Assembly (NCBI GenBank): GCA_027577595.1
Contig: JANBRJ010000105.1
Coordinates: forward strand, 1-54,173
Length of the DNA stretch: 54,173 nt
From: Coemansia sp. RSA 487
Taxonomy: Eukaryota; Kickxellomycota; Kickxellomycetes; Kickxellales; Kickxellaceae
Reading direction: 5' to 3'
The notes under the pieces were generated by a model. That model saw only the letters and a program-made list of their open reading frames with translations. It had not been told where the DNA came from and made no database searches. Positions within the stretch are counted from its first letter, which is position 1; each line of letters starts with the position of its first letter. The translations under genes were made by a program, and so were the position numbers. Positions 1-43,696 of the stretch are shown here, one piece after another.

Positions 1-76
1 TCTATCTATCTGTGATGACATGGCATGCTGTTAAATAGTGGTAAACATACATCCGGTAATTAGATTTCGTATCACA
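1..76 (-). repeat. Short interspersed repeat B, copy 1 (cut by the window edge)
   Basis: Reverse-complement copy of the repeat at 3768-3899. It starts at 76 with TGTGATACG and runs leftward out of the window. Long blocks match copy 2, including the stretch that reads AACAGCATGCCATGTCATC on the minus strand. The class is unknown. Confidence 0.75.
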
Positions 77-254
77 GGCTTGCTTCAAAGTCTTCTCTTC
101 GGAATGCTCGCTTAATACCAGACTAAATCATTGGCAATACATCTAATCACAGTATCAAAAAGCTAGTACACTTTGTACAAACCTATTAAACCACAATATA
201 TCTTGAAAACATAGCAAACGTTACTTGTGCTGGGCTTATTTCACTATTTAAATT

Positions 255-521
255 TTAGAATGATGAATACATGACCTTTCCATTGTGCGTGCAATAGTGC
301 CCAACTCTGTTATATTTCAAATCCGGCACTGAAGCAGTTGCTGTCCTGAGTTCGACTTTGGAATCGCCTTTGAAATATGATTCAATCCTCCTGTGGAGCG
401 CATATAGGCTATCATCAGACTTCATCGTTATATGTAGCGTTGTACCAATTGCAGATCCCACGCTGGTGGCTTTAAGATTCTTTGGATTTGCTACAATCAC
501 AGATACAACAATATCACTCAT
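255..521 (-). CDS. Ubiquitin-fold-like small protein, array gene 1
   Basis: An 88-residue member of a nine-gene tandem family found only in the first 7.4 kb. The shared plan is an N-terminal strand (MSDIVVSVIV), a variable loop, then strand plus helix (TTL-x-I, a D-S/E-L turn, L-x-x-x-h-x-R-x-E), then a strand, a VPD/VPN turn, and a final T/V-x-x-Y-C block ending in S-F. Laid against ubiquitin this follows beta1, beta2-alpha1, beta3 and the TLSDYNI block, so a beta-grasp fold is inferred. There is no C-terminal Gly-Gly, so classical conjugation is unlikely. An upstream in-frame ATG at 602 lies only about 24 nt from the TATA box (626-635) and is probably at or before the transcription start. 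The ATG at 521, 105 nt from the box as in the other members, is preferred. Function unknown. Confidence 0.7.
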   Translation of the reverse strand: MSDIVVSVIVANPKNLKATSVGSAIGTTLHITMKSDDSLYALHRRIESYFKGDSKVELRTATASVPDLKYNRVGHYCTHNGKVMYSSF

Positions 522-625
522 CTTGAGAATATATGCTAAGCTCTGTTCTAGCGATGATGTTAACTCGAGAATAAAAGAAAAGTTGCTGTAAAGAAAAAAC
601 ATCCCGCTGTATCTTTGACCATCTA

Positions 626-635
626 CTTTTATATA
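626..635 (-). promoter_or_regulatory. TATA box of array gene 1
   Basis: TATATAAAAG on the minus strand, 105 nt before the chosen ATG. The same spacing recurs in the other array genes. Confidence 0.6.
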
Positions 636-867
636 CAGCTATATGTTACTATAATTAGAGTTATCTATTTCTATTGTCAAATTTAGAAAATAGCTGCTTT
701 TTATTTCAGCTGACTGGGTCAAAAATAGTCGAAGAATTGTCTGAAAAAAGAGGCAAGTGGACAACGCTTTCCAACATATCAATGATGGCATGGAAACAAC
801 AAAAGCTTTTTACCATCCACTGTTTGCGTATTTATAGTATGTATTTAGGCTTATTATCTGTCAGCTT

Positions 868-1134
868 TTAGAATGATGCATTCATCATATACCCTTTTAA
901 ATCACAATAGCCTTTGACACTAATTGTGCTCAAATTAGGCACTACTCTGTTTCCTATCGTGAGTTCAACATCGTCAGTGCCCGCATAATATCCTTTAATC
1001 TTCTTATATAGTTTATCCATCTTATCGCCAGGTCTCATTCTTATTTTTAATGTCGTTGCATTTGAATGTTGTAAACCTTTGGTATTAAGCCTCCTAGGAT
1101 TCGCTACGATTACCGATATAACAATATCGCTCAT
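868..1134 (-). CDS. Ubiquitin-fold-like small protein, array gene 2
   Basis: An 88-residue protein starting MSDIVISVIVANPRRL and ending KGYCDLKGYMMNASF. The helix segment carries K-M-D-K-L-Y-K-K-I-K and the late strand reads VELTIGNRVVPN. The encoded protein is identical to gene 5 (3215-3481), and the nucleotide identity runs well beyond the coding region. It heads the first three-gene block (genes 2-4), which was duplicated to give genes 5-7. The fold call is inferred from the strand/helix pattern shared by the family. Function unknown. Confidence 0.75.
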   Translation of the reverse strand: MSDIVISVIVANPRRLNTKGLQHSNATTLKIRMRPGDKMDKLYKKIKGYYAGTDDVELTIGNRVVPNLSTISVKGYCDLKGYMMNASF

Positions 1135-1240
1135 TTTATAGTACTAACCAATTTTTTTGTCTAATTGTGGTGCTAGCTTGAGAACAATGGAAAATGAGGT
1201 TTGTAGAAAAGGTGCTATCTAAAACACTGAAAATTATATA

Positions 1241-1250
1241 CTTTTATAGT
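1241..1250 (-). promoter_or_regulatory. TATA box of array gene 2
   Basis: ACTATAAAAG on the minus strand, 107 nt before the ATG at 1134. Identical in gene 5. Confidence 0.6.
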
Positions 1251-1563
1251 CTCCTCTGGCCAGTTATGATTTTCATATATTATATTTGCTTGCAATTTCA
1301 GCATCCAGACAATTTCTATTTCTATTACGTAATCCAAAAATAGATGTATAGTGGTGTCGGGGGGAAACATTGGTGGAGAAGGTAAGCCAAAAAGATATTT
1401 AATGATGTAGAAACAAATATGATATCTACTATCCGTTTGCAGTTTCCTTTTTCCTATTTTGGTTTATTAATTTGATAGAATAATGTTGGATATGGTTGAT
1501 GTTGTCATTATGAAAATAGATCAAATGTTGCTTATGAACGGCATAATTACCCTACTTCAAAAT

Positions 1564-1830
1564 TCACAATGACGCACACATATCCTTTCCTTTAAGCTCA
1601 CAATACTTCCCGATTGTGTTAACTGTCGAATCTGGCACTGCTACCCCATTTATGGTAAGCATCACCTCTTTATTTCCAGTGAAATTAGACTCAACTCTCT
1701 CATAGAGAGTGTATAGGCTCTCATCTGGGCTTATGTTTATCTTTAGTGTTGTTGCACTCACATATTTTTGGCTAAAGCCTTTAAGCTTACTAGCGTCATT
1801 TACCATTACTGATATGGTAATATTGCTCAT
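1564..1830 (-). CDS. Ubiquitin-fold-like small protein, array gene 3
   Basis: An 88-residue protein starting at the ATG at 1830 (MSNITISVMV); the in-frame GTG two codons earlier is not a credible start. It has the clearest ubiquitin-like core of the family: TTLKINISPDESLYTLYERV parallels the ubiquitin beta2 strand and helix, and TINGVAVPDS followed by NTIGKYC parallels the beta3-beta4 and DYNI region. The C-terminus is CASL rather than the usual SSF. By eye it is about 72% identical to its duplicate, gene 6; most changes lie in the loop and helix faces. The TATA box is at 1938-1949. Confidence 0.72.
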   Translation of the reverse strand: MSNITISVMVNDASKLKGFSQKYVSATTLKINISPDESLYTLYERVESNFTGNKEVMLTINGVAVPDSTVNTIGKYCELKGKDMCASL

Positions 1831-1937
1831 TTTCACTTTAAAATCACAGTGTCTGTAAAATAGTTGCGCTAGGTTGAGAAAAAACTAAAAATGCAATGCA
1901 AAGAAAAATATTCCCAATTTTGTCTTTAACAGTCTGA

Positions 1938-1949
1938 TTTTATAGTCGC
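1938..1949 (-). promoter_or_regulatory. GCGA-TATA promoter core of array gene 3
   Basis: GCGACTATAAAA on the minus strand, 108 nt before the ATG. One of the clearest examples of the shared promoter core. Confidence 0.6.
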
Positions 1950-2235
1950 CTCTGTAATACAATATGCCACCCATTCAAGCTCAGTTTCAAGTTTAATAAT
2001 TTTTAGATTCCTATTTTAGATTTCCGAGGCAAAAATAGCCATAGAGAAACTGCTAAAAGAAAATAGAAGACAATCTAAGCTATGTGGAAATGCAGAAACA
2101 AATATGACAGCTAATATCTGTGATTTTCGATTATCTTATTTCAGTTTTTTATTTTTGATGCAAAAAATAGATTATACATCTTCTTTTCTGATGTTAAACG
2201 TGTTGATTTTAGCTAACATGCTTATTTCTCGATAT

Positions 2236-2502
2236 TCAAAATGAGGAATTCAAATAGTATCCATTTATATCACAATAGTACTTTACTGTGAGTAGTCTTG
2301 AATTTGGCACTACATTATTTCCTGCCATAAGCTTAACTTTGTAATCGCCATAGAAATGCCTCTCAACCTGCTTGTGGAGCTTTCTTAGGGTGTTGTCAGC
2401 TTTAATTTGTATGTTAATTGTTGTGCTACGTGTACCTTTTGGACATTTGACAATGAGATCCTCAGGATTGTCTATCTGCACTGATACGTTAACATAGCTC
2501 AT
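2236..2502 (-). CDS. Ubiquitin-fold-like small protein, array gene 4
   Basis: An 88-residue protein starting MSYVNVSVQIDNPEDL and ending KYYCDINGYYLNSSF. The motif order is as in the rest of the family. It differs from its duplicate, gene 7, at 13 positions by my count. Twelve are in the first 53 residues, only one near the end, and none in the stretch from the third strand through the YC block. This suggests the C-terminal half is constrained and the N-terminal half is free or diversifying. TATA box at 2606-2617. Confidence 0.72.
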   Translation of the reverse strand: MSYVNVSVQIDNPEDLIVKCPKGTRSTTINIQIKADNTLRKLHKQVERHFYGDYKVKLMAGNNVVPNSRLLTVKYYCDINGYYLNSSF

Positions 2503-2605
2503 CCTTTAATATTTTCCAAACGTATATCCTATATTGCCGCATTAACTGGAGTGAAGAAAATACTAGGGCTGAGGAAAAGTGCAACCCATCTCCTTGAGTG
2601 ACAGC

Positions 2606-2617
2606 TTTTATAATCGC
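2606..2617 (-). promoter_or_regulatory. GCGA-TATA promoter core of array gene 4
   Basis: GCGATTATAAAA on the minus strand, 104 nt before the ATG at 2502. Confidence 0.6.
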
Positions 2618-3214
2618 TAATAAGATATTTAATTAATCTTTAAATAACTTTTATTATATTCTATATACGGCATGGATATCTATTCTTAGTAAAAAATTGA
2701 GCCTTAGGGATGTTAGCTAAGGGAATGGGCTGACAAATAGTGGCAAAAATATTTACTGCAGTAAAGAAAGCATAATTTCTACTTTCCACATTGGAAATGA
2801 CAGTATTATTTGCTAATGTTGTGGTGATCTGGAGTGATACTCCCGTGGTTTCTGATCTAAATGAACCCGATACACGAAGGTATAAAAACCGTGTCTACCA
2901 AGCAACCAAATAATTCTCCCTTATTTTTATGAATTTTATCAAATAAATACATCACAATGTATGTACAAGGTAGCCATAGTATGCTTTTATCAGAAAGTCA
3001 AAGGATAAAGTAGCAAAGTAGGTATTTTCAGCGACTTTATCAAAATGCTTGTCATTTCAGCTGACTGAGCCGAAAATGGTTGAAGGGCTGTCTAAAAAAG
3101 AGGCAAGTGGACAACACTTACCAGCATAATGATGGCATGGAAACAACAAAAGCTTTTTACCATCCACTGTTTGCGTATTTATAGTATGTATTTAGGCTTA
3201 TTATCTGTCAGCTT

Positions 3215-3481
3215 TTAGAATGATGCATTCATCATATACCCTTTTAAATCACAATAGCCTTTGACACTAATTGTGCTCAAATTAGGCACTACTCTGTTTC
3301 CTATCGTGAGTTCAACATCGTCAGTGCCCGCATAATATCCTTTAATCTTCTTATATAGTTTATCCATCTTATCGCCAGGTCTCATTCTTATTTTTAATGT
3401 CGTTGCATTTGAATGTTGTAAACCTTTGGTATTAAGCCTCCTAGGATTCGCTACGATTACCGATATAACAATATCGCTCAT
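3215..3481 (-). CDS. Ubiquitin-fold-like small protein, array gene 5 (copy of gene 2)
   Basis: Its 88-residue product is identical to gene 2. It is the first gene of the second three-gene block. It shares the same TATA box, 107 nt upstream at 3588-3597. Because the neighbouring duplicate pairs (3/6 and 4/7) have diverged to roughly 72-85%, identity here points to recent gene conversion rather than a recent duplication of the whole block. Confidence 0.75.
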   Translation of the reverse strand: MSDIVISVIVANPRRLNTKGLQHSNATTLKIRMRPGDKMDKLYKKIKGYYAGTDDVELTIGNRVVPNLSTISVKGYCDLKGYMMNASF

Positions 3482-3587
3482 TTTATAGTACTAACCAATT
3501 TTTTTGTCTAATTGTGGTGCTAGCTTGAGAACAATGGAAAATGAGGTTTGTAGAAAAGGTGCTATCTAAAACACTGAAAATTATATA

Positions 3588-3597
3588 CTTTTATAGT
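3588..3597 (-). promoter_or_regulatory. TATA box of array gene 5
   Basis: ACTATAAAAG on the minus strand, 107 nt before the ATG, identical to that of gene 2. Confidence 0.6.
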
Positions 3598-3767
3598 CTC
3601 CTCTGGCCAGTTATGATTTTCATATATTATATTTGCTTGCAATTTCAGCATCCAGACAATTTCTATTTCTATTACGTAATTCAAAAATAGATGTATAGGG
3701 GTATCGGGAGGAAACATTGGTGGAGAAGGTAAGCCAAAAAGATATTTAATGATGTAGAAACAAATAT

Positions 3768-3899
3768 TGTGATACAAAATCTAATTACCAGATGTATGTT
3801 TACCACTATTTAACAGCATGCCATGTCATCGCAGGTAGACAGGTCTTTTCTTCTCTTGGTGGCTTCTTCAGTTTTTTAATATACTTTTATTCATACTAA
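3768..3899 (+). repeat. Short interspersed repeat B, copy 2, with 6-bp target-site duplication
   Basis: A 132-bp insertion starting TGTGATAC and ending CATACTAA, flanked by AAATAT at 3762-3767 and 3900-3905. The duplicate locus near 1417-1430 has one AAATAT and no insert, so it is the empty site and sets both ends. The 3' third is T/A-rich. No inverted ends and no coding potential were seen. Other copies lie at 1-76 and about 6423-6556. Confidence 0.75.
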
Positions 3900-4049
3900 A
3901 AATATAATATCTACTATCCGTTTGCAGTTTCCTTTTTTCCTATTTTAGCTTATTAATTTGATAGAATAGCGTCGGATATGGTTGATGTTGTTATTATGAA
4001 AATAGATCAAGTGCTGCTTATAAACGACATAGTTATTCTACCTCAAAAT

Positions 4050-4316
4050 TCAAAATGACGAATACATGAACTTTCCATTAGCCTCGCAATAGCTCCCAAT
4101 TGTGTTTTCTGTCGAATCTGGCACTGCTACCCCATTTATGGTGAGCTTCACCTTTTCATTTCCAGTGAAATTACTATTAACTCTCTTATAAAGAGTGTTT
4201 AGACTTTCATCTGGGTTTATCTTTATCTTTAGCGTTGTTCCACCTACATATCCTCGGCTGAAGCCTTTAATTCTATTAGCGTTACCTACCATTACTGATA
4301 TGGTAATATTGCTCAT
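4050..4316 (-). CDS. Ubiquitin-fold-like small protein, array gene 6 (paralogue of gene 3)
   Basis: An 88-residue protein starting at the ATG at 4316 (MSNITISVMVGNANRIKGF) and ending SYCEANGKFMYSSF. It keeps TTLKIKINPDESLNTLYKRV and TINGVAVPDS. About 25 of 88 residues differ from gene 3. The TATA core is at 4427-4438. Spacing to gene 5 is longer than between genes 2 and 3 by the length of repeat B plus its target-site duplication. Confidence 0.72.
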   Translation of the reverse strand: MSNITISVMVGNANRIKGFSRGYVGGTTLKIKINPDESLNTLYKRVNSNFTGNEKVKLTINGVAVPDSTENTIGSYCEANGKFMYSSF

Positions 4317-4426
4317 TTTCACTTTAAAACCACAGTGTCTGTAAAATAGCTGTGCTAGATTGAGAAAAAAAAACTAAAAATGCAATGCAAAGAAAAATAT
4401 TCCCAATTGCCTCTTCAACCGTCTGG

Positions 4427-4438
4427 TTTTATATTCAC
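4427..4438 (-). promoter_or_regulatory. TATA promoter core of array gene 6
   Basis: GTGAATATAAAA on the minus strand, 111 nt before the ATG. The GCGA half has drifted to GTGA. Confidence 0.55.
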
Positions 4439-4733
4439 CTCTGTAATACAATATGCCATTCATTCAAGCTCACTTTCAAATTTAACAATTTTTAATTTCT
4501 TATTTTAGTTTTCCGAGGCAAAAATACTCATAGAGAGGCTGCTGAAAGAAAATAGAAGACAACGTAAGCTATAAGCTACTTGGAAATGCAAAAACAAATG
4601 ATATCTAATATCCGTTTGTGATTTTCGATTTTCTTATTTCAGTTTTCTATTTTTGATGCAAAAAATATTTTACATCTTATTTTCTAATGTTAAACGTGTA
4701 TTCTTTTTAACTAACATAATTATTTCCCAATAC

Positions 4734-5000
4734 TCAAAATGATGAACTCAAATAGTACCCATTTATATCACAATAGTACTTTACTGTGAGTAGTCTTGAA
4801 TTTGGCACTACATTATTTCCTGCCATAAGCTTAACCTTGTAATTGCCATTGAAATGCCTCTTAACCTGCTTGTGGAGCTTGCTTAGAGTCTCGTCAGCTT
4901 TAATTCGTATGTTAATTGTTGTGAAATGTGTATTTTTTGGACATTTGACAATGAGATTATCAGGATTGTCTATCTTCACTGATACGTTAACATAGCTCAT
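4734..5000 (-). CDS. Ubiquitin-fold-like small protein, array gene 7 (paralogue of gene 4)
   Basis: An 88-residue protein starting MSYVNVSVKIDNPDNL and ending KYYCDINGYYLSSSF. It keeps the family helix (L-x-K-L-H-K-Q-V) and the VVPNS turn. It is about 85% identical to gene 4, with substitutions concentrated in the N-terminal half. The promoter core lies at 5104-5115. Repeat A is inserted just upstream of the promoter. Confidence 0.72.
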   Translation of the reverse strand: MSYVNVSVKIDNPDNLIVKCPKNTHFTTINIRIKADETLSKLHKQVKRHFNGNYKVKLMAGNNVVPNSRLLTVKYYCDINGYYLSSSF

Positions 5001-5103
5001 CCTTTAATATTTTCCAAACGTATATCCTATATTGCCGCATTAACTGGAGTGAAGAAAATACTAGGGCTGAGGAAAAGTGCAACCCATCTCCTTGAGTGAC
5101 AGT

Positions 5104-5115
5104 TTTTATAATCGC
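5104..5115 (-). promoter_or_regulatory. GCGA-TATA promoter core of array gene 7
   Basis: GCGATTATAAAA on the minus strand, 104 nt before the ATG at 5000, identical to the gene 4 core. Confidence 0.6.
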
Positions 5116-5153
5116 TAATAAGATACTTCATCAATTTTCAAATAACTTTTATT

Positions 5154-5299
5154 GTGATAATGATCGGCATGCGAGTTGCATGGTGAGTCACAATCACAGG
5201 TTTAATTACTGTAGTGTTTTGTATCGGCACAAAAGCCAGATTGTTCATGGAAAATAAAGTTAAGGAACTTTAGTTCCGTCAAGGCTTTTATTTGTAACA
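5154..5299 (+). mobile_element. Repeat A, copy 1: solo-LTR-like insertion with target-site duplication
   Basis: A 146-bp insertion relative to the duplicate locus near 2643-2660, flanked by TTTATT at 5148-5153 and 5300-5305. If the preceding T is counted in the element, it starts TG and ends CA with a 5-bp duplication, the usual look of a solo LTR. An AATAAAG stretch lies in its 3' half. There is no coding sequence. A second copy is at 8852-8998. A short non-autonomous DNA element is the alternative. It is younger than the gene 4/7 duplication. Confidence 0.55.
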
Positions 5300-5828
5300 T
5301 TTATTGTATTCTATATACGGCATGGGTATCTATTTCCAGTAAAAGATTGAGCCTTAGGGATGTTAGCTAAGGGAATGGGCTGACAAATAGTGGCAAAATA
5401 TTTACTGCGGTAAAGAAAGCATAATTTCCACTTTCCACATTAGAAACGATAATATTCTTTACTAATGTTGTGGTGATCTGGAGTGATACTCCCGTGGTTT
5501 CTGATCTAAATGAACCCGATACACGAAGCCATAAAAATCGTGTCTGCCAAGCAACTAAATCGCTATCCCTTCTTTTTATTCTTTTTATCAAATCAATATA
5601 TCACAATGTATGTACGAGGTAGCCATAGTATGCATTTATTAGAAAATCAAAGAATAAAGTAGCAAAGTAGGTATTTTCAGCGATTTTAGTATCAAAATAC
5701 TTGTCGTTCAGCAGCAGTATATTTTTCATTTATTTTCCTTTTCTGTTGGGGGTTTCTTATAGCTTTATTGAAAATACTAGCTGTTCGCATTTTGAAACCA
5801 TGTTGCACAACTCAAATATATCTAAACA

Positions 5829-6128
5829 TTAGCTTTTGGCAAAACCATTTTCATCCTGCAATAACAGAAATACTGCCTGCATATAGCAAACACTGTCATC
5901 GCAATAGTCTTTGACAAGAATTTTCTTTGAATTTGCAACCTTTTTTGTATCTATATAAAGTGTGACCTCGTCAAATGAGGAATAATTTGCTTGAACCCTT
6001 TTATAAAGATCTGCCAGGGTTTCATTGTCTGCCATCATCAGTTTCAGTGTTGTGGAGTGAACCTTTCTAAGTCCTGGGCTTTTGTTATTTAAAATGTTGC
6101 TCGTTTTCACCTTCACAGTAGTAACCAT
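5829..6128 (-). CDS. Ubiquitin-fold-like small protein, array gene 8 (divergent)
   Basis: A 99-residue divergent member. The ATG at 6128 (MVTTVKVKTSNILNN) aligns with the MSDIVISV start of the others and lies 103 nt from a weak TATA-like AATACAAAAG at 6231-6240, so the long in-frame extension upstream is taken as 5' leader. It keeps TTLKLMMADNETLADLYKRV, the strand VTLYIDTKKVANS, and KDYC. The end is longer than usual (extra Gln/Asp/Asn-rich tail) and adds a second Cys (VCYM). Gene 9 is its closest relative. Confidence 0.6.
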   Translation of the reverse strand: MVTTVKVKTSNILNNKSPGLRKVHSTTLKLMMADNETLADLYKRVQANYSSFDEVTLYIDTKKVANSKKILVKDYCDDSVCYMQAVFLLLQDENGFAKS

Positions 6129-6422
6129 TTTCACAATCAATAGTAAGTATGTACCAAATATTAATGTAAGTCTAGCTAGATAAAAGAAAAATGTAGTTTT
6201 GTGGATAGTGGTGCCTTCCTCAATACTGTACTTTTGTATTTCCATGTTTGCAGGTGTACATACCCTATCATTTTTTGATTGGCCAATATCTATAATGTCT
6301 ATATTTGATTCAGTTTCTGAGTTAAAAATAAGCATTTTTAATTGTAGTATAGGTAAGGCAATAAGTAGCACATCCTTGAGTTGTTGGATTCTGTTATTAA
6401 TAGATAGTTTCTGAGCTATAAA

Positions 6423-6556
6423 TGTGACACGAAATCTAATTACCGGATTTATGTTACCATAATCCAACAGTATGTCACGTCAACACAAGTTGGGCATGTT
6501 TTTTCCTTTTCTTTCCCTTTTTCCGTTTTTATAATATATTTTATTCATAAAAAATA
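6423..6556 (+). repeat. Short interspersed repeat B, copy 3 (diverged)
   Basis: It begins TGTGACACGAAATC and follows copy 2 through the ACCGGATTTATG and CAGTATGTCACGTC region to a T-rich 3' part ending near TTTTATTCATAAAA. It is more diverged than copies 1 and 2. The 3' end is approximate. Confidence 0.6.
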
Positions 6557-7098
6557 AATATTGGAGAGAACTAAATATGTGATAACAACTCAGCTCGTGA
6601 GTTGGTGAGCCGAGCTCATATGAGATACTTAGCTGATTTGCATTATGATTGACTTATCACAAGTCAATCGTACTGTTAGAAAGCATATGACATATGCCTC
6701 CCAGTTATCATGATAGGTTAGAATTATTTTCTATGGCTAAATGGCCATGATTTATTGTAGCAAATTTAAAAGAATTTTAGCTCTGCTTGAAATCGAGGTC
6801 ATTGTGTATTGTGAAACTTATTGTGAAACATTGAGAAGAACACTCATATACATCTAGCTCATACTAATGTTGTCCTCATTCAGGGATTTAATATAAGTAA
6901 CTTCAAGTCAGTAGATATTATTTTGCAATTTTGGTATCTGTATTTATCATTTAGCAACAGCACATTGTTTATTTCTTTTCCATTAAAGTTAGAGGTTTCT
7001 CATATTTTTATTTAAAGCACATGCTCTTTACATATTGGACCCATGCTACACCCCTCATATATCTCTAAATGTTAATTATTAGCAAACTCATTTGCATC
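6557..7098. other. Intergenic, AT-rich; one hairpin and short terminal inverted repeats
   Basis: No gene is seen. A perfect 9-bp inverted repeat, GATTGACTT (6647-6655) with AAGTCAATC (6661-6669), has a 5-nt loop. TGTGATAA at 6578-6585 and TTATCACA at 6654-6661 bound an 84-bp segment with the same terminal octamer as repeat A, but no target-site duplication was found. Confidence 0.4.
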
Positions 7099-7371
7099 CT
7101 ACAATGATTGAACTGTTGCACACATATAGCAAACACTGGTATTGCAATGGTCTTTGACAAGGGTTGCATTTGAATTTGTAACCTCTGTTCCATCTCTATA
7201 AAGCGTAACCTTGTCGGACGAGAAATGCTTTGCTTGATTCCTTTTATAAAGCTCTGCTAGGGTTTCATTTTCTGCCATCTTCACGGTTAGTGCTGTATAA
7301 TTAGAATTTTTAGGTGCTGGGCTATTGTTATTCAAGATACTGCTTTCTTTTGCTTTTACAGCAGTAGTAAT
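7099..7371 (-). pseudogene. Ubiquitin-fold-like array gene 9, start codon lost
   Basis: The reading frame is open and homologous to gene 8 (ILNNNSPAPK against ILNNKSPGLR; MAENETLAELYKR; VTLYRDGTEVTNS; KDHC; VCYM). The codon matching the gene 8 ATG is ATT at 7371-7369, and no other in-frame ATG lies between the TATA box and that point. The TATA box (TATAAAAG within 7474-7483) is intact at the usual distance, about 103 nt. The gene may be dead, or it may initiate at a near-cognate codon. The family-specific YC appears as HC. Confidence 0.5.
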
Positions 7372-7473
7372 TTCTACTATCAATAGCAAGCATGTATCAA
7401 ATGTTAATGTGAGTCTAGCTAAAAGGAAGAAAAGCGTAATTTTATGGATAGTGGTGCCTTCCTCAATTCTGTG

Positions 7474-7483
7474 CTTTTATATT
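7474..7483 (-). promoter_or_regulatory. TATA box of array gene 9
   Basis: AATATAAAAG on the minus strand, at the family spacing from the expected start position. Confidence 0.45.
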
Positions 7484-7839
7484 CCTCCATTAGCAGGTGT
7501 AGTTATCCCACTATGCTTTGGTATCCTAGATTTTATAACTATTCTTTATATTTTCTGCTTTTGTTTTAGTTTCCAGGTTAAATGAGCGTTCTTAATTATA
7601 ATAGAGATGGAAAAGCTACAAGTAGCATGACGTTTAGAGCTATGCTGACCATTCAAATATGGCTGTTCTTGTAGTCACTATTTAACTATCTAATTTATAT
7701 TTGACGGATATTTGTCACTTTTACAAAGTGTGTATTATAGTATGAATGACTTATTCTCCTTAGGAAATGAACAGAGTGAGAAGCAACCATGGGTGCTGAA
7801 AATCTTGCCCTGTGTAGGATATCTTAAACTATAAAAATA

Positions 7840-8060
7840 TAACACAAGTGGGGAGGATTTGGCCTACCAAATCTGCCTCACTACATTAAATCAACTTTTG
7901 GTGTTCTTCAGTCACCTGAAGTTGTAATACATCTGTTACATTTAGACTATAGAGCACGGCATCTGTATCAAGCTTCCGTGGTCAGAGGAAAATGAAGCTG
8001 TGCTTTCAGTGCTGCTTACTGAAGGTTGGGGTGGATACCAAAGGAGGTTTTCATGAACTG
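7840..8060 (+). mobile_element. LINE-like reverse transcriptase remnant
   Basis: A 49-codon open stretch from 7846 encodes KWGGFGLPNLPHYIKSTF followed by a hydrophobic and basic run. GG-F/L-GLPNL is a hallmark of the region just after the catalytic palm of L1-like non-LTR retrotransposon polymerases. Another frame downstream (about 7996-8058) encodes EGWGGYQRRFS. The fragment is short and frame-shifted, so it is a decayed relic. The ORF at 8515-8742 (WSATADWRIFRF) may be a further piece but is too weak to call. Confidence 0.45.
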
Positions 8061-8397
8061 TTAAACCTCCCTAGTTAAAACTAATCTCCATGGATAGTCT
8101 GTGTGACGGATTTGCCATGGACCCAGGACAAAATAACACAGAGTAATTATTCTATATCTTGTTTCTCAAACTAGATATAAGAAGAAAAATCCTTGCCTTC
8201 CTCAGAAGCCAATGACCCACGGGAAACGCTGTCCTTATATGTAACAGGAGGCCGTTACATGTGGTGGACTATTGCATTGTTAGCGTTTAGTGGCTGTGAA
8301 AACCCATTGTCATGGGTTTGCCTTGCATACGACACTCACACTAGCGCGACAGTCTGTTTAATCTATCAATGGGAATAGTAGACCTTGCAAAATCAAT

Positions 8398-8463
8398 TTA
8401 CTTGGATGGTGGATCGTTAATGGGCTTAGGATATATAGGCTTGTTTGGTTTTTCTACTGGCAT
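8398..8463 (-). CDS. 21-codon proline-rich minigene, copy 1
   Basis: A complete ATG-to-TAA frame of 22 codons, starting MPVEKPNKP. A second locus at 9565-9630 encodes a peptide of exactly the same length. The two share Met1, Pro2, Pro6, Lys8, Pro9, Pro12, Pro14, Pro18, Pro19, acidic residue 4, and basic residues 5 and 21. A minus-strand CTATATAAAC (8545-8555) lies about 83 nt upstream of the ATG, and the leader sequences of the two loci are also similar. Conserved length and residues at two loci argue for a real, unnamed micropeptide, although it could be one exon of a larger spliced gene. Confidence 0.45.
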   Translation of the reverse strand: MPVEKPNKPIYPKPINDPPSK

Positions 8464-8544
8464 GTTGACAAATATACTTGTATTGATGATATTGAAAATG
8501 AATGAATAAATTGAATGGAGAAAACATCCAAAGAAAACATGTCA

Positions 8545-8555
8545 GTTTATATAGC
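8545..8555 (-). promoter_or_regulatory. TATA box of proline-rich minigene 1
   Basis: GCTATATAAAC on the minus strand, about 83 nt before the ATG at 8463. Confidence 0.4.
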
Positions 8556-8851
8556 TCTGAAAACTGCCAGCCATCTATGCAATTTGCTACTTTATAGGAT
8601 ATATAACAATACTTGTGAGAATTCTCATGTAAAAATTGTCTTTGGCCCAAATCAGAACACTTTCCTAAGCAAGCATTGGTCGGCCACTGCTGACTGGAGA
8701 ATTTTCCGCTTTGTTCATACAATGATGATGTTCCCTTTGTAGATAATGTATTTTATTTTTACTCTTTATACTAAGCACCATTTAATATAAAAATTATGTA
8801 TTAGATCATTATCTGGCCAATATCTGTCACATACCCCAAAGTCATATAGCT

Positions 8852-8998
8852 TGTTACAAATAAAAGTCTTGACGGAACTAAAGTCCCTTGTCTTTATTTT
8901 TCATGAATAGCCTGGCTTTTGTAGCCATACAAACACTACAACAATTAAGCTTGTGATTGTGACTCATCATGCAAGATGCAAGCTAAGTCATTATCACA
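8852..8998 (-). mobile_element. Repeat A, copy 2: solo-LTR-like
   Basis: Reverse-complement copy of 5154-5299. It runs from TGTTACAAATAAAAG to TTATCACA and matches along its full length with scattered differences. The flanks TAGCT and TAACT may be a decayed target-site duplication. No internal genes. Confidence 0.55.
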
Positions 8999-9564
8999 TA
9001 ACTGCTGTCCACATAAACACGGGAAATGTTTCACCAACAATATGAGAGTACTTCCATTTGATTGGCTGGCGTAAATATATGTTGGCCAACAATGTTTGAA
9101 AAGTACGTGTTAGGGATTTAATTTAATTTATTAACCCAAGTATTTATAAAGAGCCAAAAAAGACATTGCCAAGATTTCAGTAACAATCAAGACCGTGAAT
9201 GTATATAATTGCTCAAGGAATTGTTGAGCGATTATATTAATTCTAGTCTATTTTGTTTGCTGTAATTATCCAATGTCTGTGATAGCGATCCAACTTACAG
9301 GCTGCTAAGCTGAGTCACAATATAATTAGCTCAATATGAATCAACCATATTGTTGGTAAGCATACAATTTATGCTTACCTATTTTCTATTATTTTCTGTT
9401 TCCATTTGAAATGCATAACTGCATATTAGCAAATGAGTATCTAGTAGCTACTTTGTTTTATTTATTACAACCCAATATAAAACAGAACTGTTTATTCGGG
9501 TTTAAAACATTTCAAATTCATTAATTACTGAAGTCATTTTAAATATAAATCCATTGTTTCCAGT
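8999..9564. other. Intergenic, AT-rich
   Basis: No ORF, repeat or promoter that I can support. Confidence 0.4.
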
Positions 9565-9630
9565 TTATCTTTTCGGTGGTGGTGTATATGGGGCAGGAAG
9601 GGTAGGTTTTGTTGGTCTGTCAGGAGGCAT
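9565..9630 (-). CDS. 21-codon proline-rich minigene, copy 2
   Basis: A complete frame starting MPPDRPTKP and ending with a Lys-Arg pair before TAA. It has nine prolines in 21 residues, with Pro 2, 6, 9, 12, 14, 18 and 19 shared with the copy at 8398-8463. A GGATATATAAAG box (9726-9737 on the minus strand) lies 96 nt upstream. Nothing in it suggests a signal peptide or known domain. Confidence 0.45.
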   Translation of the reverse strand: MPPDRPTKPTLPAPYTPPPKR

Positions 9631-9725
9631 GTTTACAAGTGTACGTTGATGGGTATGCTGATGGCTTGGTTTAGAAAACTAGTGCTTGATGTTGTTGGAT
9701 GGGTAGATTATGTGACAAGTGCATT

Positions 9726-9737
9726 CTTTATATATCC
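9726..9737 (-). promoter_or_regulatory. TATA box of proline-rich minigene 2
   Basis: GGATATATAAAG on the minus strand, 96 nt before the ATG. Confidence 0.4.
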
Positions 9738-10377
9738 CCGCCGAGTGTTTGTAGTTCGCTTGTTGTACTGCTTTCTTTGGTTATTCAGCAATGACTGGGA
9801 AATTTCTATCATCAGCATAAAAGCAAAAGTGCTTCTTTTTAGCACATTTTGCTATATGTTTTATGTTTTTCTTGGCTATTTGGAAATATTGGGGATTATA
9901 TCACACTTTATAATATAAAGGTGCTTGTGTCCGTGCCTTTTTGGCATCAAGCTTTAAAGCTTGTATTAGCTGGAAACCTGACTGCCAGTGACTAGAAAAT
10001 TCTTATCACTCGCATAGCAAAGTTTCGTTTTACATCGTTGGCAGCTATTCATTATTTGTCTTCATTACGAATTATAAATTTAAATATATGAATTATGTAA
10101 ACACTGATCAATTGTGGAAATGTTTCAACTTTTCTTTTGTGTATGGAAAACATGAACACATTTGATGTCAATATTACAAAAGGGTAAACGAATGTTCAAA
10201 TGTAAAGCACACCCCTAGCTCCAAAACCAACCATCGAATCAAGAAAATTATAAAATGCATATTCTTTAAGTGAAGGGCTATTTTGTGAACTGAGCTAAAA
10301 AAAATAGAATAGAAAAACGTACACATAAAAAGATTGAATTTTTCATAGGTAAAGTGTGACAAGCACACAAAAATTCC
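9738..10377. other. Intergenic, AT-rich
   Basis: Contains the 3' flank of the thioredoxin-fold gene. No further gene is supported. Confidence 0.4.
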
Positions 10378-11298
10378 TCATTGGAATCTTATATTAACAT
10401 CAACATTCACCGAAACGTTAATCGAACCAGATAGAGGCACAGCGCCTTGAGTAGAGATCTTCTCTGCTACCTTTAGTGCAACAAGCTCGCTTAAGTGATT
10501 TCCAACAAGACGGCCGCTATCGACAGCAGATGAATTGGCTGAGTTGACATTTATTGACCCTGCGAAACCGCCACTATATCCTGCTGCGCTGGTCGGCGAT
10601 GGTGGCGGAGGATAGGGATAATTTGAATAGATATACATTGGGTGCGAAGGAGGTAAAATGGCAGGATTTCCGTAAGGAGTTGGCATATGTGTTGGGTGAT
10701 GCTGGGCAGGTGGGTAGTTTACTTGTGGCAAAACATGTGGTTCCCTTTGAGCTCCCACTGTTACACTAGCAGACCCGGTGGCTGCGTTTGTAACAGCAGG
10801 AGTGGTGTTATTATTACCAGCAGACGGGGATGGTGGACTTGGCATAGACACTGATTCCCTGTTTGAACTCGTGCTTTGTAGAGATTCTCTCCGTGCTGAG
10901 CCACTATTACTACTACTAGGGGCCAAATCGTCATTTTCAAAGCTGCTGTGGTTTTCTATTGCCCGGTTTACGAATCCATCCAATGATGCTTTGTCCATGG
11001 TTGTCAAGCAAGAATAAAACTCCATATCTGCCAATGTAAATGCTTTTGCAAGGCCACCGCCTCTGTAAATGCTGATAGCATAGTCGCCAGTTATTCGTAC
11101 ACGCGATCTGATATCTGGACGTTCCTTTAAATCGATATAGCAGAACTTGTACTCGGGAACCTTTAGTGATAAACGTCCAAATGGCAATATAACCTCCTTG
11201 GGTACTCTGTATTTGGCGCAAAAGAGTACTACAACAACCTCATGGTTTAGCACCATGTTGTCAAACTCCTCCTGAGTTTTCGCTGTGATAATTGGCAT
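10378..11298 (-). CDS. Thioredoxin-fold protein lacking the redox motif, with Ser/Pro-rich tail
   Basis: A 306-residue protein, single exon. Residues 1-100 follow the thioredoxin pattern: an N-terminal T-x-E-E-F-D helix, the strand VVVVLFCAKY, a middle FCYIDLKERPDI strand/helix, then ITGDYAISIYRGGG where thioredoxins have the cis-proline strand and the following glycines. The WCGPC active site is replaced by FCAKYRVP and the cis-Pro is absent, so it should not work as an oxidoreductase. Residues 120-250 are low-complexity Ser/Pro/Asn. The C-terminal 50 residues are ordered-looking and end in alternating hydrophobics (SINVSVNVDVNIRFQ). A binding or adaptor role is inference. Start chosen at the first ATG of the frame. 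Confidence 0.6.
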   Translation of the reverse strand: MPIITAKTQEEFDNMVLNHEVVVVLFCAKYRVPKEVILPFGRLSLKVPEYKFCYIDLKERPDIRSRVRITGDYAISIYRGGGLAKAFTLADMEFYSCLTTMDKASLDGFVNRAIENHSSFENDDLAPSSSNSGSARRESLQSTSSNRESVSMPSPPSPSAGNNNTTPAVTNAATGSASVTVGAQREPHVLPQVNYPPAQHHPTHMPTPYGNPAILPPSHPMYIYSNYPYPPPPSPTSAAGYSGGFAGSINVNSANSSAVDSGRLVGNHLSELVALKVAEKISTQGAVPLSGSINVSVNVDVNIRFQ

Positions 11299-12300
11299 CC
11301 CTATACTACGGGTGGTTATCTTCTGCTACGAGAGTAAAGTGGACGGATAGAAAAGGATTAGATATTGAAAATAAATAAATAAAAAGTTGACAAAAAACGA
11401 TAGAGACAAAAGATTAACAATGGAAGGAGAGGGTTCGTAGAAAACACGAATTACAATGAAGACCACTTTTTCCTCTTTTCATCCGTATACTATTCCTTTT
11501 ATCTTTAGTGTTTCTTTCTAGCACCTCCCACTGCATCTTACTTTAGAATAGGGGCGTACATGACTGGAAAGGATTAGCTGCCTTAAGCAAAATCGTAAGC
11601 GCTGCTGCGTCACAACGGGGGTTTACATGGTCGCTTTCTATTCTATCCTATTCTTGGCTATTCTTCTTCTTTCTACATGGACACGCGTTGGAAGAAAGCA
11701 AAGATTGAAGAAGGGCGGCTATTGTCACTTGTCCAAAATGACACAGAAAAGGGAATGGGAGGGGACCAATTTCTCTGTATTCCTTTTGCACAAAGATAAA
11801 GTGTGGATATGTTTTCCATTTTAATCCTTTTTTGTTTTTTTCAGCCATTACTGGCTGCTCTGCTTCCAAGTAGGAAAAGACTGGAGGGAGAGAAGCTGGG
11901 CAAATACTCCCAGTCATTGGAAGAGCCCAGCGCAGATTTTTGATCACGAATGGGATTTATGCCGCAGCTAGCAGGGGAAAGAGAATCAAGTCGCATCATT
12001 TGGGTGAGCTATACAAGTCAGCCCTTGTTGCTACGGACACTGCAGAAGGGTTGGGATAAAGGATGCAGATGAACGGACAAGGACTGCGGCTATATCCGTC
12101 AAGTTCAGAGGGGTTTTAGAAAAGTGCTGTATAGCTGTAGTAATATTCCATTGCAATGAAAGCAGATGACCCGGATGTAATTTGAGATGAGGCGCAGCAC
12201 CATTCACGTGCTTACAGCTTCCAGCTATCGTCGCTCTGGCATTTTTAGTACAAATCCGGCGATGTTTTAATAGCAACGAACTAAAATAAACGCGTCACAG
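11299..12300. other. Intergenic between DDB1 3' end and the thioredoxin-fold gene
   Basis: Upstream region of the 10378-11298 gene and downstream region of DDB1. No additional gene or RNA is seen; the ORFs here lack coding character. Confidence 0.45.
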
Positions 12301-41144: not shown

Positions 41145-43696
41145 CTACTGGTTTGGAGCTGTTTCGTTGCCCTGTGCTATAGCTTTTTGCAAAAAGAAAT
41201 CCTCAGATGCTGCTGCGGCAGCTCGAATAGCCTTCAAAAGATCGTCCACAATTTCCTTTTCATATTCTTTGCGAACAACAAGAGGATCGGACTTGGGCTG
41301 TTTGCTGGAAGATTGATCACCTTGTGGTTCGTTCAGCATATCAGCAAATGCCAGAGTAAACGAGTCTGTAGCCACTATATCCTCCGTATCGAAGTAGGCT
41401 CCTTTGCATCCGTCGTGCTGGAATAGTGCCATGTAAATTTTAGTGGCCAAGAGCTTAAGTACATTGTACTCTTCCTGGAATCCGGCCAGAATAAGTCCAG
41501 AAAAGGTGTCCATGCTGTTCATTTGCCTGCGCTTACATTCTGCAATGTCCTGCATTGTCCCATGTCGCCATTTTTCTATCTCGGCTGTCTTTTTCTTGTT
41601 GATGTTGTCACGGTCTTTGCTGTTGATGCCGAATGTCCCGAGCCAGCATATCAAGTAGAGCAGCGACTCCCAGTCGTCAAGGGCAGATCGCTTTCCGGGA
41701 GCACCTTCCAGATTGTGGATGCTCATGTACGGGAGTGTTCCCGATCTTGTTCCGTTGCCGGTGGAATCCTGATCCACTGAAATCGCGTGGTCGTAGTCTA
41801 TCAGCAGCCCCTTCACTGGCCGGCGCAGAGAGTCGTCGCCGTCATTGGGGATGACAAGGATGTTGTTCACCGATATGTCCCGGTGAAGCAAGCCGCACTT
41901 CTCAAGGATGGCGTTGTGGCATTCCATTGCGTCGGAGAGAACCAGCACCAGCTCGCCTTGGTGTTCCACACGCTTTATGAAACCGCCAACCGGCGTCGTG
42001 ACAATAAGGCTGCGCACACGATACATTTGCTCCTCATCGCCGTCATCGTATTCGTAGATTGCCAACGTATCATCTATGATGTACTTGCCGCCAACACTAA
42101 GCTTTGCTCTGCTGCTGGTGACAACCTGGGGGTAGCTAAAGTTCAGGTTTTTGCCAGCAAACTTCTCCTTGATCAGCTGCAGATTGCGTGCCTCGTCGGG
42201 GACTGTCGAGATTGCGCTTTGCTTCTTCAAGTCACGCGGCAAGGACCAAGAGTCCTTTAAGACCACCTCCATGCCGCTTGGATCGTCCTTGCGCCTTGCT
42301 ATGTAGCAGCGCGTGTGCCTGCCGAACAACGACGATGCGTTCACTATCGTTCTTGTGGTGACATATGATGTAAAGCTATTGCGTTTGCCGTCGTTGTCGT
42401 GATCGGGGCAGCGGATCTCCCACGCGTTCTCTTCCCTGAGCCGCGTCATATTCGTATCGTACCCAAGCCGAGTGAAGCTGCAAAACGACCAATGTACAAG
42501 AAATGTCACAAGCCTTTCTCTCCCGCCGGGGCTTGCAAAGTCCATTTCAGACGTTGCTCGAACACCGTCGTGGTGGAAGAGGCAGCCCCTGACTTTGGTG
42601 CCGCACATCGTGAGCCCCCAGGCAAAGCGCCGGTGGTCCTGGTTTGCATAAATGTTCCGCGTGTACTCGACCAGCTGTGTAAACGCTTGCAGTGAGTCCC
42701 TTTCCTGCCGCTTGAGCTCACCGATTGCAAACATGTCCTTGTAGTTGGGGCTGCCTTGCGGCTCGATCGGGGATGATAGTCTGCAAAGCGCCAGCGCACC
42801 GTCGATTTTTGTTCTGTCGTCACTACCCTCCGGCTTGAAGTCGGCACCGTTGTACGGGAGGATAAGAACCGGTTCTATTGCACCAGAGCTCTTCTTGCGC
42901 TTTCCCTTCGGCTTGACGCTACGCTCGGCGATGAATCTTTCGGCGCCGGCTTTTACATGGTGTGCCACCAACATGATAAAGTCTCTGAACAGCGGATACA
43001 TATCCGCCTCGCTCACTCCCCGAAACAGCTCCTCGTTTAGCTTACTCAGCCGAAACGTGGATTCAACTGCCCTGTCCAGATCGAACGAGTCTCCGTACTT
43101 TTTCAATTCATCCTTGCCGATGACAGCGTCAAGGTTTTTTTCAGAGAGTGCACTGAGTCCATTGTTAATGGTGGTCAGGGTCGCTTCGACTATTGGATCT
43201 ACGATGGTCTTTGCCGTTTTCTTTGGCTCAACAAGCGAAAAGAGGCTGTCCACGTCCTTTCTGACAGCGTATTTTGCGATATACTCTGCCTCATGCCTAC
43301 GCTCGTCCATGATCTCCTTCATGCTTGTGCGTACGTTCTCAGGCGTGCCTTTGCCTTTTCCACAAGAGACACAGAGTGTTGATGCGGCTGTACCTTCCAG
43401 CAACTCGTTCTGTTTTTGTCCTATATAGTGACAGCTGGGTACGCAAACAACGGCAACGGTATCAATAGAATGCCTCAATATATTTATATAAGGGTCCCGG
43501 ACAAAAGTGTGTTCAATACAAGGTACTTACTGTTGTCTGGTGTCTGGAAATCGTTGTTCTTTTGTCTTTTCCTTGCAGGCGAAATACACTCTGCACTTGC
43601 GTTTCCACCAGTTTGCACTTGGTGTACATTGGACTTGCGCCTATTTCTTGGGGGGTTCCGGCCCTTCCTGGGCTGGTTTTTGCCAGTGGCTGCCAT
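41145..43696 (-). CDS. Fungal-type protein kinase (FunK1 family), two exons
   Basis: Join of 43531-43696 and 41145-43420 gives 813 residues. The intron (110 bp, 43421-43530) has donor GTAAGT and acceptor TATATAG; only this acceptor keeps the frame. Exon 1 (MAATGKNQPRKGRNPPRNRR) is basic, with NLS-like PARKRQKN. A helical N-terminal domain follows, then the FunK1 part: KDMFAIGELKRQERDSLQAF, LVHWSFCSFTRLGYD, the catalytic loop LLHRDISVNNILVI (HRD near residue 566), GLLIDYDHAI in the DFG position, and RSGTLPYMSIHNLEG. This set is characteristic of Pkinase_fungal. A Ser/Thr kinase role is expected; substrate unknown. FunK1 genes are often expanded in lineage-specific sets. Confidence 0.85.

Follow-up and report, generated by a model that had tools for sequence, protein, structure and literature searches.

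The window analysed here is the whole of contig JANBRJ010000105.1 (C105) of Coemansia sp. RSA 487, 54,173 bases in an assembly of 17.8 Mb and 184 contigs. At its very end, between positions 255 and 7371, lie nine related open reading frames, g1 to g9, all on the minus strand (Table 1). The initial annotation, made from the letters alone, had described nine genes on one plan; nine related frames are indeed present, although only seven are intact and g9 has no ATG. Judged by sequence comparison, their kinship is beyond chance, with tblastn E-values among the copies down to 4e-23 for g1 against g6, which are not recent duplicates. The array is unique in the assembly, as g6, g2 and g8, each used as a single-protein query, led at E 1 to exactly these nine places. 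g9 is the most diverged copy, with tblastn matches only from g7, g8 and itself. The first seven copies all have exactly 88 codons from the ATG and align without gaps, and their C-termini are SSF, ASF or ASL. The cysteine of a YC pair said to be common to all nine is found in every copy, eight times as YC and once as HC, and an ending in S-F holds for six copies and not for the other three. A Gly-Gly C-terminus is found in none of the nine. The farthest copies, g8 and g9, look decayed (dS 0.40 and dN 0.30 between them by codon comparison), and g8, the divergent one, is probably decaying.

Table 1 Features of the array. Gene coordinates include the stop codon; the frame alone is given in the description. 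TATA positions are relative to the start codon.
Feature	Position	Strand	Description	TATA element
g1	255-521	minus	Intact 88-codon gene (frame 258-521)	TATAAA at -112
g2	868-1134	minus	Intact 88-codon gene (frame 871-1134)	TATAAA at -114
g3	1564-1830	minus	Intact 88-codon gene (frame 1567-1830)	TATAAA at -114
g4	2236-2502	minus	Intact 88-codon gene (frame 2239-2502)	TATAAA at -110
g5	3215-3481	minus	Intact (frame 3218-3481); coding sequence and protein identical to g2	TATAAA at -114
g6	4050-4316	minus	Intact 88-codon gene (frame 4053-4316); duplicate of g3; first sequence modelled	TATAAA at -117
g7	4734-5000	minus	Intact 88-codon gene (frame 4737-5000); duplicate of g4	TATAAA at -110
g8	5829-6128	minus	Divergent, 99 residues; longer, altered C-terminus	TACAAAA at the place of the TATA box
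g9	7099-7371	minus	Degenerate; ATT for ATG; sister of g8	TATAAA at -110 from the ATT
First unit	695-3061		g2, g3 and g4 with flanks; recurs in tandem as 3046-5712 (blastn)	
Second unit	3046-5712		g5, g6 and g7; holds repeat inserts E1 and E2	
E1	3768-3910	minus	Dispersed repeat of about 140 bases between g5 and g6; at least 40 genome copies	
E2	5149-5299	minus	TG...CA repeat of about 147 bases upstream of the g7 TATA box; at least 40 genome copies	

The two units match in three collinear blastn pieces with identities of 97.1%, 88.0% and 89.8%. A three-gene block has been duplicated in tandem, followed by two repeat insertions and partial homogenisation. Between g2 and g5 there are no differences in 267 coding bases against 17 in 455 bases of flank (P 0.0005); g3 and g6 differ at 16.9% of coding and 9.5% of flanking bases (P 0.002), and g4 and g7 at 7.5% and 9.5% (P 0.38). 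Gene conversion over the g2/g5 stretch and exchange between paralogs at g3/g6 would be the simplest readings. Positive selection at g3/g6 was considered and rejected: dS is high as well (0.22), and where g3 and g6 differ, g6 agrees with g1 at 24 sites and g3 at 13, so that paralog exchange explains the excess equally well. The ten copies of the E2 repeat that were read are 147-152 bases long, the nine others being 98-100% identical to the array copy. All ten have TG...CA ends and a 5-base target duplication (the duplications as read from the printed flanks), which suggests that E2 is a solo long terminal repeat, probably one active recently. Other copies of the E1 repeat lie in the window at 6423-6561 and, partially, at 5-76; as the latter sits at the contig end, further copies of the genes may lie beyond it.

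TATAAA starts 110-117 bases upstream of the start codon in eight of the nine copies (for g9, upstream of the ATT), and when duplicates are counted once, each of the five groups (g1, g2/g5, g3/g6, g4/g7 and g8/g9) has it in at least one copy. A TATAAA lies in the interval -120 to -105 for 4.0% of minus-strand positions, a background that includes the array itself, and for 1.8% of those on the plus strand in the first 8 kb. Neither of the two neighbour genes with an ATG start (RPC2-like and RNR-like by inspection) has the motif at -120 to -105, and the RNR-like one has a TATAAA at -209. TATA promoters fit inducible expression, and expression of the array genes may be inducible. Among g1, g2, g4 and g6, the mean ratio of nonsynonymous to synonymous substitution rates (dN/dS) is 0.63 (0.39-0.93; at least 1 in 1.15% of bootstraps), and the family is under weak long-term constraint. 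In the same four copies, the loop between beta1 and beta2 (residues 11-26) is the least conserved part, with a mean identity of 20% compared with 52-57% for beta1 and beta2, and it takes 14 of the 38 recent amino-acid changes, a disproportionate number; its bounds were set from the model, although the variation had been inspected before testing.

Two AlphaFold models, both confident, give a ubiquitin-like beta-grasp (beta-beta-alpha-beta-beta), and the fold comparison agrees. The products therefore likely have a ubiquitin-like fold, in line with the initial annotation, which had proposed such a fold without a Gly-Gly end and named structure prediction with a fold search as the check. Its placing of the YC block as the closing part of the chain did not hold: in the models, this block is a helix, the last strand comes after it, and the intact chains stop at that strand. 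In the C-terminal half, several landmarks can be aligned with ubiquitin by eye (NG with AG, VPD with LED and TIxxYC with TLxDYN). The residue aligned in the same way with I44 of ubiquitin varies among R, T and M across the six distinct members of 88 residues.

No database family names these proteins, as the initial annotation had also judged. No match was better than E 0.01, the best E-value being 0.017 for PADLOC, 0.03 for Pfam, 0.044 for NCBIfam and 0.049 for PHROGs. The ubiquitin family PF00240 matches none of the eight members scanned, g5 being left out as identical to g2, and none of its 22 matches in the genome falls inside the array. g2 alone found no candidate with three shared words in the protein collection and no relative in the prokaryotic contigs, and the viral contigs held no relatives of g6, g2 or g4. 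The collection does hold Coemansia, as a control query with the next long gene inward (10381-11307, minus strand) returned three proteins of Coemansia, a genus of the Kickxellales, at 64%, 48% and 48% identity. Because members outside the duplicate pairs share only 0-4 five-residue words, such searches reach close relatives only, and it is for these alone that outside relatives are excluded; a majority consensus was judged of no help. In the open-licence literature, covered by titles and abstract openings, we found no array of this kind. Farther along the contig, a fungal protein kinase is encoded at 41148-43418 on the minus strand (Pkinase_fungal, E 5.7e-57), and Rfam gave no match at the gathering threshold across the window.

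Taken together, we put at about one in two the probability that the array encodes free-standing ubiquitin-fold proteins of a lineage-restricted family, which cannot be conjugated and bind partners non-covalently, as Hub1 does. Each intact gene has its own TATA-box promoter, and each product would be a beta-grasp that stops at its last strand and offers an E1 enzyme no tail to activate; usual conjugation would then be impossible and the action non-covalent. By analogy with Hub1 and its partner motif HIND, the constant scaffold might present a variable binding edge, the beta1-beta2 loop, to intracellular partners, and the combination of constant core and variable loop suggests a diversity of partners. 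Copy number would be maintained through tandem duplication and gene conversion.

Hub1/UBL5 would be the closest working analogue, since the array proteins are likewise free-standing, with a predicted ubiquitin fold and no Gly-Gly. PMC8431670 describes Hub1 as acting non-covalently, stress-induced in yeast and highly conserved, with a C-terminal di-tyrosine motif. The array differs in having several diverging copies without the di-tyrosine, and the likeness lies in the predicted fold and the missing Gly-Gly. The ubiquitin-like domains of RAD23 matched at E 0.14 at best, and the 88-residue array chain has no further domain. UBX domains (PF00789) matched one of the eight members at 12.7 bits, against a cut-off of 21, and none of the others. 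They are parts of larger proteins, and their FPR loop motif was not seen in the array proteins; the UBX-type domains compared were FAF1 UBX and 4rv0_B, presumably the UBX-like domain of NPL4. The ubiquitin-like N-terminal domain that PMC5289972 gives as predicted for oomycete CRN proteins is there related to fungal SSK1. However, the Crinkler header PF20147 has no match in the array and none over the cut-off in the genome (one at E 0.08, elsewhere), and the array proteins have no C-terminal effector part.

Several results weigh against a family of Hub1-like binders. The two models were built on the same eight sequences and so are not independent, and for g6 two of the five models were poor (predicted local distance difference test scores of 55.6 and 54.3). 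The genome has 22 PF00240 matches, 11 of which were read; one partial sequence was dropped and the other ten served for comparison. Against these ten ubiquitin-like domains hhalign scored 11.4, below the maximum of 13.5 from 40 shuffles; in a second run (12.5), the family's score was equalled or passed by 11 of 150 shuffles in local mode and by as many in global mode. Despite a score not above shuffles, the matched stretch is beta2 to the helix, in register. A segment of the enzyme AGPR is a better sequence match than these domains. The profile search for relatives elsewhere that the initial annotation had proposed came back empty, with 450 candidates from 5.8 billion proteins and none at E 0.01 or below, within its reach of close relatives, leaving no homologue to show long-term maintenance. 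Finally, the dN/dS of recent pairs (0.84 and 1.19) has wide intervals and does not differ from 1, so that change at the surface may reflect relaxed constraint or paralog exchange and not selection.

It is possible, though rather unlikely, that the family instead descends from AGPR (ArgC; the second half of fungal Arg5,6), as a piece of its C-terminal domain that was freed and multiplied and that may regulate or disturb the assembly of the enzyme. Both profiles rank 2cvo_A, residues 256-317, first in the PDB (E 5.7e-5; 9.2e-5 with the eight-row profile), over family residues 19-81; this entry, labelled a putative semialdehyde dehydrogenase, we take to be the rice AGPR. Next come 1xyg_A, presumably the AGPR of Arabidopsis (0.073), and six RAD23 ubiquitin-like domains (0.14-1.3), in the same order with the eight-row profile. 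As single queries, three of five members placed 2cvo_A first (g6 0.0066, g2 0.19 and g7 0.49), whereas g1 and g8 returned no AGPR from the PDB. In hhalign comparisons with 81 AGPR sequences, 80 from prokaryotic loci plus that of the genome itself, the scores of 31.2 (P 2.9e-4) and 28.1 (P 8.5e-4) exceeded those of every shuffle (100 of 100 and 150 of 150), but with a probability of 24-40%. A hidden Markov model of the family listed only six of the 81, reaching 11.5 bits at best (E 2.3 at PDB size), and with them five of the ten ubiquitin-like domains (3.8-6.5 bits). Even at E 10, the profile found only two AGPR sequences in the PDB, both presumably from plants, whereas the genome's own enzyme matches 13 distinct AGPR-like PDB sequences. 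In that enzyme, the segment is the best local match for g1 (E 7.5e-4, one-sequence search with composition correction off) and for none of the other seven members. The enzyme itself lies at 21354-22418 of contig C100, where by inspection it follows a kinase-like part within a single long frame, presumably the Arg5,6 arrangement; its C-terminal segment is without the NYC motif present there in 2cvo and 1xyg. The array proteins, at 88 residues, have neither the NAD-binding half nor the length of an enzyme.

The C-terminal domain of AGPR has a GAPDH-like alpha-beta fold (SCOP) with a strand order different from the ubiquitin-like topology of the models, and for this reason the two links are hard to reconcile. 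The one with ubiquitin rests on predicted structure and the one with AGPR on sequence statistics. The fold weighed more with us, as both models are confident and, in the C-terminal half, several landmarks also align by eye.

That the frames are functionless, decaying or drifting neutrally at an AT-rich, repeat-laden contig end, seems to us unlikely. The state of g8 and g9 and the near-neutral recent pairs would suit it, as would a G+C content of 33-35% in the first 8 kb (33-36% in 1-10000), compared with 38-59% in the part of the contig beyond 10 kb. However, seven frames of equal length, aligned TATA boxes and a deep dN/dS below 1 argue for function. Moreover, non-recent copies align as proteins, whereas blastn at 1e-5 finds no matches between their flanks except dispersed repeats, some short, weak similarities aside. 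The surroundings of 29 other copies of the E1 repeat, taken in stretches of up to 3 kb, have a median G+C of 37% (33-46%), and the low G+C at the array end therefore needs no foreign origin.

Equally improbable in our view is a role in conflict or defence, in which the proteins, as decoys or inhibitors, would target a ubiquitin-dependent step that parasites, viruses or rival strains exploit, a proposal that overlaps with Hub1-like binding. Tandem birth and decay, fast change, the variable loop and the TATA promoters would all fit. Nevertheless, the mimicry of modifiers or defence suggested by the initial annotation gained nothing from the searches: no defence family matched better than E 0.017, the viral contigs were negative for g2, g4 and g6, the I44-aligned position is not conserved, and there is no conjugation tail. 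More doubtful still is a composite history in which a fragment of AGPR was cut loose, turned into a ubiquitin-like fold or resembled one from the start, and multiplied into private non-covalent binders with a hypervariable recognition loop. Covalent modifiers in the manner of ubiquitin or UFM1 are very improbable, since the fold alone speaks for them, all nine copies lack Gly-Gly or any glycine end, nothing follows the last modelled strand in the intact chains, and PF03671 (UFM1) matches none of the eight members and nothing in the genome at E 10 (prokaryote controls, none over the cut-off).

From a biological perspective, the comparable tail-less ubiquitin-fold protein, Hub1, is highly conserved, whereas the proteins described here would be a tandem set private to one lineage, in which the core stays constant and a loop changes fast. 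Such a set of Hub1-like binders would be a natural binding scaffold, and would offer a handle on the origin of orphan gene families and on the way in which they come by a shared fold. The unexpected similarity to AGPR raises a testable question, namely, whether a ubiquitin-like fold arose from an enzyme fragment or two folds share a sequence pattern by chance. If the fragment is the true source, the ubiquitin fold would have gained in the array both a new origin and a new use in many copies.

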